This document shows positions 2,414 through 13,248 of a DNA stretch of 13,442 nt, one piece after another. The translations under genes were made by a program, and so were the position numbers. The notes under the pieces were generated by a model. That model made no database searches, was not told where the DNA came from, and saw nothing but the letters and a program-made list of their open reading frames with translations. The first letter of the stretch is position 1. Each line of letters starts with the position of its first letter. The DNA is from an uncultured Chlorobiaceae bacterium (GTDB taxonomy: Bacteria; Bacteroidota; Chlorobiia; Chlorobiales; Chlorobiaceae), in NCBI GenBank assembly GCA_903838095.1, contig CAILXE010000105.1:1-13442 (forward strand), written 5' to 3'.

Positions 2414-4087
2414 ATGGAACAGGAACGGGAATCACTGGAATTTGATATTATTTTTGTCGGAGCGGGGCCTGCCAACCTCACTGCTGCCATCCATCTCCAG
2501 CGCCTGATAAAGCGCCACAACGCCCATTCTGCAAATCCGCTTGACCCAACCATTGCCGTCATCGATAAAGGACGCTATGCGGGCGCTCACCTGCTCTCAG
2601 GCGCTCTGCTTGACCCAAGAGCTCTTGAAGAATTTTTCCCCGACTTCCGGGAGCAGGGCTGCCCGATTGAAGCCTCCGTCAGCCATGAAACCATCTGGTT
2701 CCTGCAAAGCAAAAGGAAATTTCCGATTCCCTTTGTTCCAGAAACGTTCAGCAACAAAAACTCACTGCTTGTCTCACTCAGTCGCCTCGGTGCATGGCTG
2801 GCTGAAAAGGCTCAAGAGGAGGGTATTCAGTTTTTCGACAACACCGCAGCTTCAGCCCCTTTCATCGAAAATGGCAGGCTTGCCGGCATTATAACCGACG
2901 AGAAGGGACTCGATAAAAACGGCCATCAGAAACCGGGCTATGAACCGGGATTACTGCTGAAAAGCAAGGTAACGGTGATCGGCGAAGGATCAGACGGCTC
3001 ACTCTCACGACAGCTTTTCAGTCATTTTTCGACTGGCAGCTCTATCCAACGGTATGAAACAGGTGTTAAAGAGACATGGCGTATCCCCGAAGGGCGGGTT
3101 ATAGCAGGAGAGGTACACCACACCTTCGGCTTTCCTTTTGAATCGGATGTGTATGGCGGCGGCTGGCTCTACGCCTTCTCCCAAACACTCGTTTCCGTTG
3201 GATGTATTTCATCACTGGGGTCCGATTCGCCCGTATGCGACCCCCATCTCAACCTCCAGCGCTTCAAACTCCACCCGTTGATGGCCAACATCCTTAAATC
3301 GGGAACAATGGTTGAAGCGGGGGCAAGAACCATAACCTCCGGTGGGCTCGACACCATGCCGCAACTCTCCTGGCCAGGCTATCTCTTCACCGGTGAATCG
3401 GCAGGGATGGTTAACATGCAACGACACAAGGGAATACATCTTGCCATGAAGTCGGGCATCATTGCCGCCGAAACCCTCTTTGATGCGTTGCTGTACGAGG
3501 ATTTTTCAACCGAACGGCTGAAAAGCTGCGACGAAAAGTTCAGAAATTCATGGGCTTACGACGAACTCTACGCCGCCCGAAACTACCGCAAATCGTTTGA
3601 CAACGGGTTGTATGCCGGATTGCTTCAGGCGGGCCTCCAGCTCAGCTTTCCCGGCCTCTCCATGAAAAAAACTCAGATAAGCCTTTTTGGTCTGGCACCC
3701 GCCCCAAACCTTGGTCTGAAAAAACGGAAAGATACCTCGTTTGCAATACCAGAGTTCAGGTCAGATGGCATCAGAACGTTCAGCAAAGAGAGAAGTCTCT
3801 TCAATTCAGGCGTCATGCACGAAGAGAACCAGCCCTGCCACCTGCGCATCAAGGCTGAAGACATGGCAGAGATCTGCTTGAAAAAATGCACCATCGAGTT
3901 CGGAAACCCCTGCCAGCACTTCTGCCCCGCAGCGGTGTACGAAATCATCACCGAACCCGTTCCGGCGCTCAAGCTGAATCCGTCAAACTGCCTCCACTGC
4001 AAGACCTGCGAAGTTGCCGACCCTTATGGCGTCATTACCTGGACTGTTCCCGAAGGCGGCGGAGGGCCAGGATACAAGGTGAGCTGA
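2414..4087 (+). CDS. Electron transfer flavoprotein-quinone oxidoreductase (ETF-QO)
   Basis: This 557-residue protein has the order of ETF-QO/ETFDH. An N-terminal FAD Rossmann motif GAGPAN (16-21) is followed by the KGRYAGAHLLSGALLDPRAL region, a long substrate/quinone domain, and a C-terminal [4Fe-4S] ferredoxin-like domain. The cluster ligands are C504 (CPAAVYE), C526, C529 and C532 (CLHCKTC), spaced as in the human enzyme. The chain ends with the family hallmark VPEGGGGPGY. ETF-QO takes electrons from reduced electron transfer flavoprotein and passes them through FAD and the cluster to membrane quinone. It attaches monotopically to the membrane. The start at ATG 2414 leaves only a short leader before the FAD motif. 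ETF subunit genes are not in the window, so the physiological donor is unknown. A decayed copy of its 3' end lies at about 5140-5346. Confidence 0.93.
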   Translation: MEQERESLEFDIIFVGAGPANLTAAIHLQRLIKRHNAHSANPLDPTIAVIDKGRYAGAHLLSGALLDPRALEEFFPDFREQGCPIEASVSHETIWFLQSKRKFPIPFVPETFSNKNSLLVSLSRLGAWLAEKAQEEGIQFFDNTAASAPFIENGRLAGIITDEKGLDKNGHQKPGYEPGLLLKSKVTVIGEGSDGSLSRQLFSHFSTGSSIQRYETGVKETWRIPEGRVIAGEVHHTFGFPFESDVYGGGWLYAFSQTLVSVGCISSLGSDSPVCDPHLNLQRFKLHPLMANILKSGTMVEAGARTITSGGLDTMPQLSWPGYLFTGESAGMVNMQRHKGIHLAMKSGIIAAETLFDALLYEDFSTERLKSCDEKFRNSWAYDELYAARNYRKSFDNGLYAGLLQAGLQLSFPGLSMKKTQISLFGLAPAPNLGLKKRKDTSFAIPEFRSDGIRTFSKERSLFNSGVMHEENQPCHLRIKAEDMAEICLKKCTIEFGNPCQHFCPAAVYEIITEPVPALKLNPSNCLHCKTCEVADPYGVITWTVPEGGGGPGYKVS

Positions 4088-4177
4088 GGACAAACTTGAC
4101 TCAAAAGAGCAAAAAAACTTTTATCTTGATCTGGAAAGCCTTTTGATCAATCATTATATAAGATCTCACGCCCGTAA

Positions 4178-5430: not shown

Positions 5431-7184
5431 CCTGAGTTGATCGATTCGTAATAATGTAGACAGTTCAGTGCGGCAAAAAAACAATATTCCAAGTAATGGA
5501 AGCTGAACCGAACAGAAATCATCATCTGAGACGTTGAACAATGTCGGTTTTCATGGTGAATCGCAGGAAAAACAGACGTTCGGCACTCCAATGATACTAT
5601 TTTTGATCTGATCGGGCGTACCTCTCCCATGATGACATGATGTGTTCTGCTCCTCCAGACCGTGTTTTCAACCGGTCATGACTGGTGCAAGTTGACAGGC
5701 TGCAAACAACCGATCAAACTGCAGACGTTTAAAGGTAGCTCTCGGTACTTTCATGATCAGTTTGCCGGCATGTCGGACAATCTTTCCTGCCGTGTCAATG
5801 ATCTGACGGCGGAAGGTATCAGCGTAGACGGTTACCGGAATGACTGGTGCCGTTACATCTTCCTTGAAGGCCTCGAACAAGTTGTGGCTGACACACATCA
5901 GATAATACCAGGCTGCGTTAGCGGCGAAACGCTTGAATGGCAACTGCTCATGGCCAAAGTTTTTCAACGCTCTGTTCGCCAGTTCATCACTGCCTCGTTG
6001 ATGATAATCGGCCAGAATCTGATGAGCTGTCAGTAAATGCGCTTGACCAGCCTGACGGATCTGTTCGTCAATCGGACCACCCATGCCAAGGTTCGTGATG
6101 ATAACGCTGTCTTTAACCAGACCAGCAAGAACCAACTGCCGGTCTTTCTGGATCAGACGACTGTAGATGGTCCGACGGGCCTTGTGCCAGTTTGTTTGTC
6201 TGGTTTTGAATTCGGTATACTCCCAGATCTCCTTGTTGTCACGAGAGGTAAACGGAAACCAGTCGGTAGCTAATGCCGCTGCATTGGTAACGTTACTATA
6301 GCGTTTGCCTCCGCAGTAATAACCGATCTTGAGCCATTCACAGGTCTCAAACAGCTCATGATCATAAAAGCCGGCATCCATACGAACAATGATTGGCACA
6401 TCAGCACGGTACGCTGTCCGGATTTTTTCAACCATATGAACCAGCATCATATCAGCGGTATCACCATGATTGGAGTGCTTCTTGCCACCACGAAAAACCG
6501 CATCCACAAAGTATCTACCCCAGTTCAGTTGCAGGGGCTGAAAGCCTTTGACTTTCTTGTAGGTTGGTTGTGTACGCCATGCCGTTTCAGGGCATCATCA
6601 TTGTTGAGCACCATGGTATCCATACCGAGTACAATGACCTCTGGCTTCATGATGTTGAGTCTCCAGATGAAGAGGTGCTGCAGCAGTCGCCGAAAAAGAA
6701 AAACTCGCACATACGAAAACTTGCTGAACAATCGTTTGATGGTATGCGACGAGGCCAGATTGCTACTGCCTATTACTCCGGCATAACTGTCATCTTCCTT
6801 CAACTGGTCAAACCTGGTAAGGTGGCGGCTGGTGCCGTCCATGAAAAAGCAGAACAACTGAACAAACAGCTCGGTGACGGCAAGACCTTTGCTGTTTTTG
6901 CGCATCGAACCAAACCATCGTTCAATCAGCGGCAAAATCTGAATGCTGCGAACATAAGCTTCAAACAACGCCAATCCGGCTCGACCGGTCATGCGCTCAT
7001 CAGTTGGCTGAATGGTGCTGATTTTCTGTTCTTTTTTATGCTGAAACCTTGTATCTTTTGCCATAAAGCTCTCTACCTCTTGGGTTGTGTTTTCTTGGGC
7101 GGTAATTTCGTCGTTACCCGCTTTAATATAACACTTTAGTCTATAAGTTGAGGGCTTTTTTTATTCCTTATCGATCAGGTCAGG
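5431..7184 (-). mobile_element. IS1380-family insertion sequence, 1754 bp
   Basis: The boundaries are set by terminal inverted repeats. The left end begins CCTGAGTTGATCGATTCG at 5431, and the reverse complement of the right end begins CCTGACCTGATCGATAAG at 7184. About 19 of 24 positions agree. The flanks are ATAAA (5426-5430) and TTAAA (7185-7189), which is not an exact target duplication. The inside carries one transposase reading frame on the minus strand, now frameshifted, and about 237 bases of untranslated DNA after it. Length and transposase fit the IS1380 family. The right end cuts a DNA methyltransferase gene, and the missing part of that gene is not found beyond the left end. Confidence 0.85.
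5668..7064 (-). pseudogene. IS1380-family DDE transposase, frameshifted
   Basis: The N-terminal portion starts at ATG 7064 (MAKDTRFQHKKEQKISTIQP) and contains the first catalytic Asp in VIVLGMDTM (D149). It runs to ALKRHGVHNQPTRKSKAFSPCN and stops at 6525. The C-terminal portion in another frame picks up the conserved QPTYKKVKGFQPLQLNWGR, then VDAVFRGGKKHSNHGDT and the second catalytic Asp (RMDAGFYDHEL). It ends at 5668. Comparing the two frames, GGCGTACACAACCAACC near 6564-6578 has two extra bases (a CA repeat) relative to the expected GGCGTACAACCAACC. Removing them restores one open frame of 464 codons, a normal IS1380 length. The transposase therefore looks inactivated by a 2-base insertion. 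Programmed frameshifting is not typical of this family, and no slippery heptamer is evident. Confidence 0.85.
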
Positions 7185-8013
7185 TTAAATAGTCATACAT
7201 ATTCTCAAGGTTTTTAGCCCCGAGTGGCATCGCTTTTTTTCTAAACGGAATTAGGCATACAAAATTCCCCACCCCAAACACCTCATCCATCAACTCCCGG
7301 ACATGATGCACGTTCTCATCACTGATCTGCACAAAAATGCTGCCGCTTTCAGTGAGCAGTTCTCTTGCAAGAAGCAGTCGATCGCGCAGGTAAGTCAGGT
7401 AGGAGTGAATGCCAAGCTCCCAGGTGTCACGGAAAGCAAGAATCTGCTCCGGCTCGGAGGTCAAATCGTCATCCTTGCCATCCTTCACATCGCGCTTGTT
7501 GACAAAAGGCTGAAAGTTTGAGCCATACTTGATGCCATAGGGAGGATCAAAAAATACCATCTGCACTTTGCCCGCCATCCCCTCCTTTTCAAGCAGGGAG
7601 TTCATCACCAGCAAGCTGTCGCCCGCCACCAGACGATTGCTCCATCCGTGGGCATGCTGATAAAACTTGATGGCTTCGCGCAATGGCGGATTTTCATCCA
7701 ACTGACCAAAAAATGATAACTGTGCGTCATCCTCCCTGATTTTGCGTACCGCTTCGATGATGCTGCGCGGATCAATACGCTCGTGAACGTGCAGCGAAAC
7801 TGTCGGAATCTCAAAAGAGGTATGATCCGCCTTGCCAGCCCATTGCAGTTGAGGGTCAAGATGAGGATCGTAGGCATAACTTTTCTTTGCTCCGGCATCA
7901 GGATCAGTCTGGGGTGTCACCAACCCCACAGGCGGATTGTTCACCCGCAGCTTGTCTTTATGCTCGTAAGACTCAATCGGACGCTTTGTATCAACTGCCT
8001 GTTTTTTTGCCAT
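7180..8013 (-). pseudogene. Type III-like site-specific DNA-methyltransferase, 5' fragment cut by the IS
   Basis: From ATG 8013 the minus strand encodes about 275 residues of an N6-adenine methyltransferase resembling type III Mod subunits. A long N-terminal region with SLHVHERIDPRSIIEAVRKI is followed by LVAGDSLLVMNSLLEKEGMAGKV and the catalytic DPPY motif (156-159, FFDPPYGIKYGSNF). LLTESGSIFVQISDENVHHV and the segment NLENMYDYL come next. At that point the right end of the insertion sequence begins, and the IS itself supplies the TGA stop (7180-7182). Full-length relatives are several hundred residues longer and carry the SAM-binding FxGxG motif and target-recognition domain after this point. 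Those are absent here, so the product should be inactive. No matching 3' remainder or res gene is visible on the other side of the IS. Confidence 0.85.
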
Positions 8014-8521: not shown

Positions 8522-9862
8522 ATGACTAAAGAAAATCAGCATATCGAATGGAAAGAGTCTTGGCGAGACGAGTATTTGAAATGGATTTGCGGTTTTGCAA
8601 ATGCTGAGGGTGGAGTACTGGTTCTTGGCAAGAATGATAAAGGATTGCTGGTTGGACTTAGTAATGCCCAGCAGTTAATAGAAGTTATTCCAAATAAGGT
8701 TCGAGATATTCTTGGCATTATTGTCAAGGTGAATTTGCGTGAAGAGTCAGGAGAGGAATTTCTTGAGATTGTTGTTGAGCCTTATCCATATCCTGTAAGT
8801 TATAAGGGTGAATATCATTACCGTAGCGGCAGCACAAAGCAGGAACTTAAAGGAGCGGCTCTTGATCGGTTTTTATTACAGCGACAGGGACGACATTGGG
8901 ATGGCGTGCCTTTACCCTATGTTTCAATAACCGATCTGGATGATAAAGCGCTGCTGACCTTTCGAAAGCAAGCATTAAAAAGTCAACGATTGCTGCCTGA
9001 AATTATCGATGAATCCAACGACGTGCTCCTTGATAAGCTTCATTTATTTGATGGAGCTTATCTTAAAAGAGCGACGACCTTGTTGTTTCATCCTGACCCT
9101 GAGCGCTTTATTACTGGTGCTTATCTGAAAATTGGATTTTTTGAAACAAACGCTCATGTACGCTATCAGGATGAAGTGCATGGCAACCTTTTTTCTCAAG
9201 TAGGTCAAACAATAGAACTGATTAAAAATAAATATCTTAAAGCGTTCATTTCGTATGAAGGGCTTCAGCGAATTGAGAGCTATCCTATACCGGAACCTGC
9301 ATTACGTGAGGCCATTTTAAATGCTGTTGTTCATAAAGATTACGCAAGCGCTATTCCTCTTCAGATTAGTGTCTATGGCGATAAGTTGATGATTTGGAAT
9401 CCGGGCCAGCTTCCTGCTACCTGGACGGTTGAAAAGTTGTTTAAGAAACATGCTTCGCAACCTTTTAATCCTGATATTGCAAATGCTTTTTTTCGTGCAG
9501 GATTAATTGAAGCATGGGGGCGAGGTATTGAACGGATGATTGAGGCTTGTGATAGAGAAGGAGTTCCTGCGCCACAGTTTAGCTGTGAGCAAACAGGTTT
9601 ATGGACAATTTTTCATTTTTCGCCCGAACATGCTTTAGTGAAAACTACCCAAGAAACTACCCAAGAAACTACCCAAGAAACTACCCAAGAAAAAATTCTT
9701 GCTTTGCTCCGGGAAAAGCCATCATGTACGCAAAAAGAGCTTGCATTTAAAATTGGTATCAGCACAAATGGTGTAAAATACCATATAGGGAAACTCAAAT
9801 CCGAAGGAATTATTCGGCACATTGGAGCTACAAAAACAGGCTATTGGGAAATCGTAAATTGA
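8522..9862 (+). CDS. AlbA_2 (Schlafen-like) ATP-binding regulator with C-terminal winged helix
   Basis: This 446-residue protein is of the family often named RecG-like or 'putative DNA-binding domain'. Residues 4-115 form an AlbA_2 domain (IEWKESW, ICGFANAEGGVLVLGKNDKG, HYRSGSTKQEL). Residues about 255-365 form a GHKL-type ATPase domain (HATPase_c_4) with the N-box REAILNAVVHKDY (R262, E263, N267, H271, D273) and later GRGIERMIEAC. Residues 375-390 are four exact TTQE repeats. Residues 392-445 form a winged helix (TQKELAFKIGISTNGVKYHI). Members are thought to be transcriptional regulators, and AlbA_2 is the bacterial version of the Schlafen core. Some such proteins occur in defence contexts, but nothing here proves that role. 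The gene is visibly AT-richer than mnmA, stands alone, and lies between 19-bp direct repeats, all suggesting transfer. ATG 8522 follows directly on AT-rich DNA. Confidence 0.9.
   Translation: MTKENQHIEWKESWRDEYLKWICGFANAEGGVLVLGKNDKGLLVGLSNAQQLIEVIPNKVRDILGIIVKVNLREESGEEFLEIVVEPYPYPVSYKGEYHYRSGSTKQELKGAALDRFLLQRQGRHWDGVPLPYVSITDLDDKALLTFRKQALKSQRLLPEIIDESNDVLLDKLHLFDGAYLKRATTLLFHPDPERFITGAYLKIGFFETNAHVRYQDEVHGNLFSQVGQTIELIKNKYLKAFISYEGLQRIESYPIPEPALREAILNAVVHKDYASAIPLQISVYGDKLMIWNPGQLPATWTVEKLFKKHASQPFNPDIANAFFRAGLIEAWGRGIERMIEACDREGVPAPQFSCEQTGLWTIFHFSPEHALVKTTQETTQETTQETTQEKILALLREKPSCTQKELAFKIGISTNGVKYHIGKLKSEGIIRHIGATKTGYWEIVN
9644..9691 (+). repeat. Four perfect tandem copies of a 12-bp repeat (TTQE linker)
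   Basis: ACTACCCAAGAA occurs four times in a row without a mismatch, in frame with the AlbA_2 gene, and encodes (Thr-Thr-Gln-Glu)4 between the ATPase domain and the winged helix. Exact 12-bp units can gain or lose copies by slippage while keeping the frame, so linker length is probably variable between strains. Confidence 0.95.
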
Positions 9863-11637: not shown

Positions 11638-11731
11638 CAGCTCATTGCGCTTCCTGCCTGTTTCAGAAGCAATACCTGACTTGTTTCGTCTGTTTGAGCC
11701 ATTACGGACGTACAATCTTTTGGCCCAAAAG

Positions 11732-11785
11732 AATACACCCTATACACAAAAAACATCATATACACCGAACACACAAGACACACCT
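11732..11785. repeat. 9-bp iteron array A, about six units
   Basis: Read in 9-base steps the DNA gives AATACACCC, TATACACAA, AAAACATCA, TATACACCG, AACACACAA, GACACACCT. The core ATACAC (or ACACAC) recurs every 9 bases with variable flanking bases. It lies about 200 bases upstream of the ParA-like gene. Confidence 0.7.
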
Positions 11786-11927
11786 CCCCTACCTGTTTCC
11801 ATCAGATTTTCCAACTTTTTCTTTTGAAATAATGCACATTCTTGATGTTTATTATTCTTCTTTGCCTATATTTTTACAATAATTACTCCATTTCTGCAAC
11901 AAGATTAATGAACGGCTGGTTTCTAAA

Positions 11928-11981
11928 CTATACGCAGGATACATCATATACACCTAATACACAGGACACATAAAACACACA
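11928..11981. repeat. 9-bp iteron array B, six units ending at the parA start
   Basis: Nine-base steps give CTATACGCA, GGATACATC, ATATACACC, TAATACACA, GGACACATA, AAACACACA. The array ends two bases before the ATG at 11984, so a protein bound here would cover the start of the operon. The core and period are the same as in arrays A and C. There is no Shine-Dalgarno sequence in this leader. Confidence 0.75.
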
Positions 11982-11983
11982 TA

Positions 11984-12748
11984 ATGCGAATTATCACGAT
12001 AGCCCTTCAAAAGGGAGGAACAGGCAAAAGTACCACTGCCCACGCCCTGGGGCAGGGGCTGCAGCAACAAGGATTCAGGGTATTGTTTGTAGACGTTGAC
12101 CCACAAGGAAACCTTTCCTCTACGATGGCAGCCGAAGCAGGGAGACCAACTGCCTATGATGTGCTGACCAAAAAGACAACAGCACAAGAGGCAACACAGC
12201 AAACCGCACAGGGTGCGATTATTCCTGCCAGTCCGCAACTTTCAGGCGCCGACCTTGAAATAACCCAGACAGGAAAAGAGTACCGTTTGAAAGAGGCTCT
12301 CAGGCCCATCCGGAACAAATACGATTTCTGCATCATCGACACACCGCCAGCTCTCGGAACCTTGACCATAAACGCCCTGACTGCTGCAACAGAAGTCATC
12401 ATTCCGGTACAGGCCGACACCTACAGCATCCATGGTATCACACAGCTCTACAGCACCATCAGTGCCGTCAAAGAGTATTGCAACTCCGACCTGAGAGTCG
12501 AAGGCATCCTGATTACACGCTATAACAACCGCACCATCCTGAGCCGTGATCTGGCAGACATTATTGATTCAACCGCACAACAATTGGGCACAAAACTCTT
12601 CAAGACAACAATCAGGGAAGGAATTGCCATCAAGGAAGCTCAAGCAAGGCGCGAACCTCTTTACAGTTATGCACCAGCCAGCAACCCGGCAAAGGATTAT
12701 CAGGACTTTATTGTGGAATACCTGCAAGCGACAAAAGGGGCGAAGTAA
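11984..12748 (+). CDS. ParA-family partition ATPase, plasmid-like
   Basis: This 254-residue deviant Walker ATPase has QKGGTGKSTT (K10 signature Lys, K15 P-loop Lys), Walker A' FVDVDPQGN (D38, D40) and Walker B IIDTPP (D119). It lacks an N-terminal helix-turn-helix, so it is of the short type (as in type Ib, ParA/ParF/delta systems), which does not itself bind its operator through an HTH. ATP-bound dimers of this family coat the nucleoid and move cargo through an adaptor protein. The stop is two bases before the next ATG, so it is co-transcribed and probably translationally coupled with the small RHH gene. It differs clearly from the chromosomal ParA at 1-221. Regulation through the iteron arrays upstream is inferred. 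A non-partition role, positioning another cargo, is possible. Confidence 0.9.
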   Translation: MRIITIALQKGGTGKSTTAHALGQGLQQQGFRVLFVDVDPQGNLSSTMAAEAGRPTAYDVLTKKTTAQEATQQTAQGAIIPASPQLSGADLEITQTGKEYRLKEALRPIRNKYDFCIIDTPPALGTLTINALTAATEVIIPVQADTYSIHGITQLYSTISAVKEYCNSDLRVEGILITRYNNRTILSRDLADIIDSTAQQLGTKLFKTTIREGIAIKEAQARREPLYSYAPASNPAKDYQDFIVEYLQATKGAK

Positions 12749-12750
12749 CA

Positions 12751-13095
12751 ATGGCAAAAAAAACCTTCAAGGACATCAATCCAGCCACAGCATTTATCAG
12801 TAGTGCGCAGGCCGAAAGAGATACATCTCATACACAACATACATCAAACACAGCAAATACAAGATATACAGGGAACACGCCGTATACACATAAAGAAAAT
12901 ACGGCCGAACATAAAACCAAACGCGTCAATTTAGTCATACAACCATCTGTTTTTGAAGACTTTACAAAAATCGCCCACATGAAACGCCGAAGCTTCAACG
13001 ATCTTTTTAACAAGGTCATAGCAGAATACATCGAAAAAGAAGCCGACACTATCCGGGATTACAACAAAACATTTGGAGAGCCTTCATCTTTTTAA
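12751..13095 (+). CDS. Small ribbon-helix-helix DNA-binding adaptor (ParB-like) with Thr-repeat linker
   Basis: This 114-residue protein begins with a basic N-terminal segment MAKKTFKDINPATAFIS (1-17), where small ParB analogues usually carry their ParA-stimulating peptide. Residues 23-46 form a low-complexity linker with Thr at every third position (HTQHTSNTANTRYTGNTPYT). The C-terminal part, KRVNLVIQPSVFEDFTKIAH then KRRSFNDLFNKVIAEYIEKE (57-97), fits a ribbon-helix-helix: a beta strand RVNLVI, then helices about 65-77 and 80-97. The order is that of adaptor proteins working with short ParA ATPases. The linker is encoded by a 9-bp iteron array like those upstream of parA. DNA binding and a partition role are inferred from fold and context; the exact family is not recognised by name. 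Confidence 0.8.
   Translation: MAKKTFKDINPATAFISSAQAERDTSHTQHTSNTANTRYTGNTPYTHKENTAEHKTKRVNLVIQPSVFEDFTKIAHMKRRSFNDLFNKVIAEYIEKEADTIRDYNKTFGEPSSF
12818..12889 (+). repeat. 9-bp iteron array C inside the RHH coding sequence, eight units
   Basis: Nine-base steps give GAGATACAT, CTCATACAC, AACATACAT, CAAACACAG, CAAATACAA, GATATACAG, GGAACACGC, CGTATACAC. The core ATACA/ACACA recurs in every unit. In the reading frame each unit gives two variable residues and a Thr (ACA in seven units, ACG in one), so the same DNA is both linker-coding and iteron. Confidence 0.8.
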
Positions 13096-13179
13096 CCGGC
13101 GCAAAACTATTCACAAACCGCTTCAGAAAAACCTTTCCGCTTTTACTCATCGAAGCATAAAACAGATGATGAGCGCCGG
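13096..13179 (+). promoter_or_regulatory. Possible structured leader upstream of metH
   Basis: CCGGCGC (13096-13102) pairs exactly with GCGCCGG (13173-13179). Inside, CTCATC (13146-13151) can pair with GATGAG (13168-13173), next to the outer stem. This could form a folded RNA 70-150 bases before metH, or a terminator of the parA operon, although no T-run follows at once. No cobalamin or SAM riboswitch box is recognisable, so it is a weak candidate. The rest up to 13248 shows nothing further. Confidence 0.3.
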
Positions 13180-13248
13180 CTGAACGAACGTATTTGCCAG
13201 TGTTATCCGTATATTCTCTTTTTTTTAATCACTGCCATGCTTTAACGA

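Follow-up and report, generated by a model that had tools for sequence, protein, structure and literature searches.

The par locus of an uncultured Chlorobiaceae bacterium is probably a plasmid-type ParA-RHH cassette whose ribbon-helix-helix (RHH) protein binds a 9-bp unit repeated in three arrays, two of them upstream of parA and the third written into the codons of the protein's own linker. What the sequence shows is the arrays themselves, their specificity for the locus, the insertion of the cassette, and a choice of linker codons and residues that fits the DNA unit beyond the needs of the protein. The window (the whole stretch of DNA analysed, 13,442 nucleotides) is contig C105 of a 2.37 Mb assembly in 518 contigs that is 82.5% complete, and among named relatives that have this locus the nearest is the Chlorobium MAG L017 (RHH identity 93%). 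An Abhydrolase_2 esterase gene is followed by parA, a 114-aa RHH gene and metH, the last label having been confirmed via the G035 copy of the locus. The features are as follows.

11638..13248, no strand assigned: esterase-metH stretch containing the inserted par cassette, ends approximate (locus comparison; the last part is ordinary metH upstream sequence)
11733..11786, + strand: array A, six 9-bp direct repeats with 5 perfect AYACA cores, non-coding (chain scan; triple-unit match at 11760)
11930..11983, + strand: array B, six 9-bp direct repeats, the first with ATACG and then 5 perfect from 11939 (chain scan)
11984..12748, + strand: parA, a 254-aa ATPase without N-terminal DNA-binding domain (Pfam AAA_31)
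12751..13095, + strand: RHH adaptor gene, 114 aa, with an N-terminal NPAxAFISS motif, a linker and a C-terminal ribbon-helix-helix domain (PHROG 582; alignments A1 and A2)
12751..12804, + strand: N-terminal motif, common to plasmid relatives adjoining parA and altered in orphan RHH proteins (alignments A1 and A2)
12796..12915, + strand: linker codons, residues 16-55 (residues 19-54 with pLDDT < 50)
12821..12892, + strand: array C, eight in-frame 9-bp units within the linker (chain scan, recoding tests)

A preliminary description had placed eight 9-bp units with an ATACA/ACACA core inside the RHH gene at 12818-12889, encoding Thr at every third residue, and had noted the same repeat with the same period twice in non-coding DNA upstream of the operon. 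These observations were borne out, the position being correct within 3 bases (12821-12892). The period of array C is exactly 9 bp and the AYACA core is perfect in 7 of 8 units, the remaining one reading ACACG; the non-coding copies are arrays A and B, which are identical to array C in unit, orientation and period. Array A lies ~200 bp upstream of parA, while array B ends immediately before the parA start codon. Read in the RHH frame as (N)AY-ACA, the core of array C yields T25, T28, T31, T34, T37, T40, T43 and T46, and the seven TxxT pairs of the window linker were equalled by 0 of 2000 residue shuffles. At least five perfect units within 350 bp upstream of parA were seen in 0 of 300 first-order Markov resamples.

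Across the assembly, the pattern AYACA-N4-AYACA-N4-AYACA had eight matches, all at the par locus (one in array A; three in array B, at 11939, 11948 and 11957; four in array C, at 12821, 12830, 12839 and 12848), while the reversed control pattern had one match in the same 82.5%-complete assembly. Extending the search to 98 genomes of the order gave 41 matches, spread over 16 genomes, whereas the reversed pattern matched 11 times. Of these 41, 27 were at RHH loci, in 7 of the 14 genomes that bear an RHH gene; of the other 14 matches, one lay elsewhere in RHH-bearing G004 and 13 in 8 genomes without an RHH match. Among the 20 loci fetched around triple matches, tblastn (which covered those matches with a fetched locus) found parA or RHH relatives at RHH loci only. 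Five-unit arrays also occur in at least 120 stretches of viral contigs, where tblastn found a ParA or RHH relative in 0 of 80 loci fetched, so the repeat alone is not diagnostic.

The proteins share features with systems of type Ib. The ParA matches Pfam AAA_31 (2e-51) from residue 1 and has the features of a type Ib ParA, being short (254 aa) and without an N-terminal HTH; its solved-structure relatives include ParA and Soj proteins, and a second ParA elsewhere in the assembly is a partial match (39% over residues 98-248). Two further type Ib traits are an RHH-domain adaptor gene directly downstream, here after a gap of 2 bases, and repeat arrays, here A and B, upstream of the operon. The adaptor itself matches the Arc-like repressor profile PHROG 582 (2.2e-5), as do 15 of 15 members of alignment A2 at E <= 1 (best 5.1e-6), so the RHH label given to it earlier holds. 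The 114-aa protein had no Pfam match above cut-off, the ParG and PrgO models were each matched by 1 of 15 members (E 0.071 and E 0.078, respectively), which does not amount to a ParG-like family assignment, and parA's partner matched no ParB model, unlike the HTH-type ParB of a canonical chromosomal ParABS system. A PDB search with the RHH profile gave a best E of 4.5. The AlphaFold2 model of the RHH protein, with helices and no strand, is weak (pLDDT 57.8, pTM 0.31), and no fold comparison is therefore drawn from it; residues 19-54, most of the linker, have pLDDT < 50 and are predicted to be disordered. The N-terminal NPAxAFISS-type motif may contact ParA. A promoter scan did not rise above its shuffled controls, with 3 promoters found and a shuffle mean of 2.6.

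A phylum-wide search with alignment A2 found the RHH family in 18 of 394 genomes, belonging to two genera that are both in the window's family; weak matches were seen alongside in G052, G062, G084 and G085. Among viral contigs no relatives of P0004 or P0007 were confirmed, so the linker families P0001-P0007 are known here as protein only.

The esterase is present in 16 of 21 genomes searched, and at nine of these 16 loci (L218-L226) it adjoins metH, without parA or RHH; the par cassette lies between the two genes in the window and G035. The L217 locus ends before metH, and for four more distant genomes metH was not found within the locus. Nine relatives with neighbouring esterase and metH and no cassette indicate that the window's clade acquired the cassette and its arrays by insertion, at a point between the esterase and metH upstream sequence that is common to the relatives. 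L021, the closest cousin whose set of arrays differs, lies on a contig that can be regarded as plasmid-like, since it carries RepA_C, KfrA_N and resolvase genes. The window locus is classed here as a plasmid-type ParA-RHH cassette. Plasmids of Lawsonia, Arsenophonus, Streptococcus and Moraxella carry related ParA-RHH pairs; RHH matches in Lactococcus were weaker, and in Megamonas a small gene adjoins that of a ParA relative. Four Chlorobium ParA-RHH pairs, in three genomes, are beside ATP-citrate lyase genes, a label tested on L022 and assigned by eye to the other three. At one locus, L024, three perfect units lie on the opposite strand just upstream of parA (4063-4089 in reverse-complement coordinates; 0 of 300 resamples), and the L024 linker is without a clear array.

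We propose that the unit bound by the RHH protein would be approximately AYACAYNNN and that RHH dimers would bind all three arrays. Array B, which ends at the parA start codon, would be the operator, and arrays A, B and C together would form either a nucleoprotein complex moved by ParA or a looped repression complex. Array C would provide extra sites ~0.84 kb downstream of array B, built into the codons of the protein's disordered linker. In a genus that has lost parA, arrays of this type would have an autoregulatory role.

Such a genus was found. The second genus (g2) contributes seven genomes with orphan RHH loci (L025, L026 and L028-L032), in all of which the RHH gene follows an AdoMet synthetase gene; the next gene encodes a CDF cation exporter in 5 of 7 and a HAD-type hydrolase in 2 of 7 (neighbour profiles were run on L028 and L029). 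The ParA Walker motif is absent from the ~10 kb fetched around each of the seven RHH genes, and each genome has one other ParA, elsewhere, with 36-37% identity, which is taken as the chromosomal Soj type. The NPAxAFISS motif of the g2 proteins is changed. Upstream of each of the seven genes there is still an array, or more than one, with two or three units. The numbers of resamples out of 300 that reached these arrays were 2 for L025, 7 for L026, 15 for L028, 29 for L029, 0 for L030, 5 for L031 and 0 for L032; taken singly these upstream arrays are weak, those of two units being reached by 2-29. In-gene units are present in 5 of 7, numbering 2 to 6 (L028 2, L029 2, L031 6 of which 3 are perfect, L032 2, and L030 2 in another frame), and the chain scan found none in L025 and L026.

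Since orphan RHH genes keep short arrays without an adjacent parA, partition cannot be the sole role of such arrays, and since partition by a cognate ParA cannot explain the orphan arrays, binding and autoregulation are taken as the shared function. The orphan arrays argue for an operator role of such repeats besides that of a centromere, the latter being likely only where parA is present. The same genes lend some weight to an explanation in which array C is a DNA-level RHH site of purely regulatory use, as an auxiliary operator, a roadblock or a looping partner of array B, and not part of a centromere, and the end of array B at the parA start codon fits it as well. Nevertheless, parA is intact in the window's clade, partition is the expected job of the L021 cousin on its contig with RepA, KfrA and resolvase genes, and the g2 arrays are shorter than the g1 arrays, so that we rate a solely regulatory array C as the less likely, though still appreciable, possibility. 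The orphan RHH protein is possibly a partition adaptor turned regulator. An RHH fragment within the window's own genus (G040:C62:8921-9184; L048, L194; L033) had one TGA and one TAA inside it in one search and was returned as a partial match without stops in a second; it lies ~1.6 kb from an AdoMet synthetase-like ORF and is perhaps a decayed orphan copy.

The preliminary description had suggested that the linker is under selection at the DNA as well as the protein level, and this was supported in sequence tests by Thr codon choice, synonymous recoding and the residues that precede Thr. Codon choice was compared at 15 loci. ACA made up 7/9 of linker Thr codons in the window vs 25% in flanking genes, 6/8 vs 23% in L020 and 5/6 vs 32% in L021. 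In g2 the shares were 8/13 in L028, 9/13 in L029, 9/12 in L031 and 9/11 in L032, with 6-12% in flanking genes, as well as 3/8 vs 0/65 in L030 and 3/11 vs 6% in L025. ACA was not enriched in L022 (0/5), L023 (0/2), L024 (1/2), L026 (0/8) or L027 (2/3; not significant), nor in the linker of the Lawsonia plasmid pair L055 (3/7 vs 16/23). Codons ending in A were more frequent among linker Thr than among other four-fold linker codons in the window group (18/23 vs 8/25, p 0.0015) and in g2 (41/76 vs 44/191, p 1.6e-6), p-values that are optimistic and rough given that many of the compared sequences are kin; in the group beside ATP-citrate lyase genes the counts were 3/12 vs 20/66. Within linkers, ACA was used for 29/46 Thr of TxxT arrays vs 9/32 other Thr, a count over 10 of the 15 loci that omits the near copies L020, L023, L031 and L032 and the outgroup L055. 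Between relatives, a synonymous comparison of low power found linker Thr codons unchanged in 6/8, 4/6, 11/12, 10/11 and 7/10 cases, and other four-fold linker sites in 2/6, 0/2, 19/19, 15/19 and 3/7.

Recoding was done in two forms. In the first, the protein was fixed, codons followed flanking-gene usage, and the score was the match to the clade's non-coding profile, which included the locus's own non-coding arrays; the observed score was reached by 0-1 of 3000 recodings in 7 of 7 array loci tried. The stricter form left the own locus out of the profile and kept the linker's own third-base composition, and was applied to 19 linkers (those of Megamonas and pRGI00116 were inspected and left out). 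For the window, 0 of 2000 recodings equalled array C in their match to the non-coding arrays of other loci, and the corresponding counts out of 2000 were 23 for L020, 6 for L021, 39 for L028, 2 for L031, 15 for L029 and 23 for L032. Five plasmid linkers were scored and only that of Lawsonia was above the nulls, with 33 of 2000 synonymous recodings and 3 of 2000 residue shuffles; the other four were null-like (L052 870, L051 875, L050 1124, L053 1129). Intermediate counts were obtained for L024 (74), L030 (93) and L025 (116), and four further linkers were null-like (L022 412, L023 468, L027 643, L026 1689); array C is not universal among the linkers scored.

The residues before Thr fit the DNA unit in the window's clade. 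All eight arrayed Thr of the window are preceded by His, Tyr, Asn or Asp, which have NAY codons. Across five representative linkers (the window, L021, P0004, P0006 and P0007), the residue before an arrayed Thr was NAY (Y, H, N, D) rather than NAR (Q, K, E) in a ratio of 37:3, compared with 26:42 at other linker positions (p 8e-9, uncorrected for kinship); the rule was not significant in P0006 or P0007 alone. It fails in g2 (11:13 vs 54:88, p 0.31; 5 of 7 loci) and is not significant in Lawsonia (2:0 vs 22:13). Together with the recoding results, the NAY residues make the repeats of array C look selected as DNA.

Linker length bears on how such an array could arise. Window-type linkers are 34 (L021 and P0006), 40, 58, 67 and 70 aa long, and every difference between them is a multiple of three residues (9 bp); P0005 (30 aa, with a different start) was left out of this statement, and P0001 and P0002 have the linker lengths of the window and L021. 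Because each 9-bp unit spans three codons, gain or loss of units leaves the reading frame intact, which makes the linker a permissive place. Whole-unit gain and loss combined with selection on the core would give a shared core, a variable spacer and the length rule, whereas plain slippage would explain the length rule and not the synonymous signal. Mean pairwise identity of the units is 0.86 in the core vs 0.26 in the spacer for array C, and 0.92 vs 0.28 for L021, the core identity in coding arrays being partly imposed by the Thr codons. Array C as a product of 9-bp slippage in a low-complexity linker, copied from arrays A and B and under protein-level selection or none, would accord with the predicted disorder, with linker lengths that change by whole units and with the 9-bp AYACA arrays in unrelated viral contigs. 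It sits poorly with units that share the core and not the spacer, with Thr third bases that stay A in two genera despite local codon usage, and with the mixed chemistry of the NAY residues that precede Thr in the window's clade; we consider it improbable. Selection on the Thr-every-third peptide itself, for example as a contact surface, with codon bias as a side effect of AT-rich DNA, would address the most visible feature of the linker and the raised ACA share in parA (13/28 Thr), but is hardly credible when, at seven loci, the null that keeps third-base make-up reaches the observed score in only 0-39 of 2000 recodings, the adaptors of related plasmid pairs are without such a peptide, and the residue before Thr varies among His, Tyr, Asn and Asp.

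We lean towards a double-coded linker, in which the array would have grown in frame and been kept in two green sulfur genera, surviving there even where parA was lost; a Lawsonia plasmid may be a further case. The repeat pattern does persist through changes of linker length and residues in the window's clade, and does so more weakly in the second genus. The opposite outcome, a Thr-every-third peptide whose Thr codons vary and whose DNA has no shared core, is approached in L026, which has 3 TxxT pairs and no ACA among its 8 linker Thr.

Type Ib partition systems have a small ParA, and the repeat period of ParG is 8 bp. ParF-ParG of TP228 and delta-omega of pSM19035 are described as systems whose RHH adaptor has an unstructured N-terminal part and is also a repressor, and the type Ib centromere as a set of repeats, both direct and inverted, that precedes the par operon (PMC5016525); a title in the reference list of that paper gives the omega repeat period as 7 bp. 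The window shares with type Ib systems an RHH adaptor with a stretch predicted to be unstructured, repeats upstream of the par operon and the small ParA. It differs from them in its period of 9 bp, in scoring below cut-off with the ParG model and in having a third array inside the adaptor gene.

In-gene binding arrays have precedents in the pSK41 origin and in intragenic parS and SegB sites. In the RepA_N plasmid pSK41, four Rep boxes located centrally in the plasmid's own rep gene form the origin, and the origin-encoded part of Rep acts as a linker, proteins without it still working in trans (PMC5703833). As array C would, these boxes place a DNA-binding protein's sites in its own linker codons, the role of the window's RHH protein being putative. 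Unlike the window, pSK41 involves a replication initiator of another fold, and matching non-coding arrays go unmentioned in the available part of the source. In Pseudomonas aeruginosa, 9 of 10 parS sites are predicted in coding sequences (PMC4368675), and for the archaeal SegB, an RHH protein beside the ParA-like SegA, 83.7% of sites are within genes (PMC12284271). These cases resemble array C in suggesting that centromere sites can lie in coding DNA, but they are palindromes scattered in other genes and not an in-frame array that sets the adaptor's own linker. A parS site is found inside spo0J of B. subtilis. A narrow literature search found no earlier description of a binding array in the linker codons of a partition adaptor itself.

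A further close parallel is the Lawsonia intracellularis plasmid pair (L055), whose ParA and RHH proteins are 58.7% and 32.8% identical to those of the window. It too has ATACATATA-like 9-bp repeats upstream and a linker above the nulls. It differs in belonging to another phylum and in having degenerate in-gene units that the chain scan missed. Of 300 resamples, 14 and 3 equalled its upstream chains, and its AT-rich background weakens the tests.

If the dual reading is right, a disordered linker shaped by the DNA sites that its codons spell would be a clean case of dual coding, and its odd residue pattern, with His, Tyr, Asn and Asp before Thr, would be predictable from DNA recognition alone. 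In-gene binding arrays would then occur in partition adaptors as well as in replication initiators, and in the orphan branch one could watch a partition adaptor becoming something else.

Elsewhere in the window, a perfect 12-bp tandem repeat of 4.2 copies lies in frame at 9642-9692, inside an ORF at 8522-9862 (+ strand); it reads TTQE and is N-terminal to the C-terminal winged helix of a SLFN_AlbA_2 + HATPase_c_4 protein. A DDE_Tnp_1_4-group transposase at 5668-7064 (- strand) is divided between two ORFs, each matching a different part of the profile. Adjoining these ORFs is an N6_N4_Mtase-type DNA methylase (7180-8013, - strand), which matches only profile positions 1-101 of 221.
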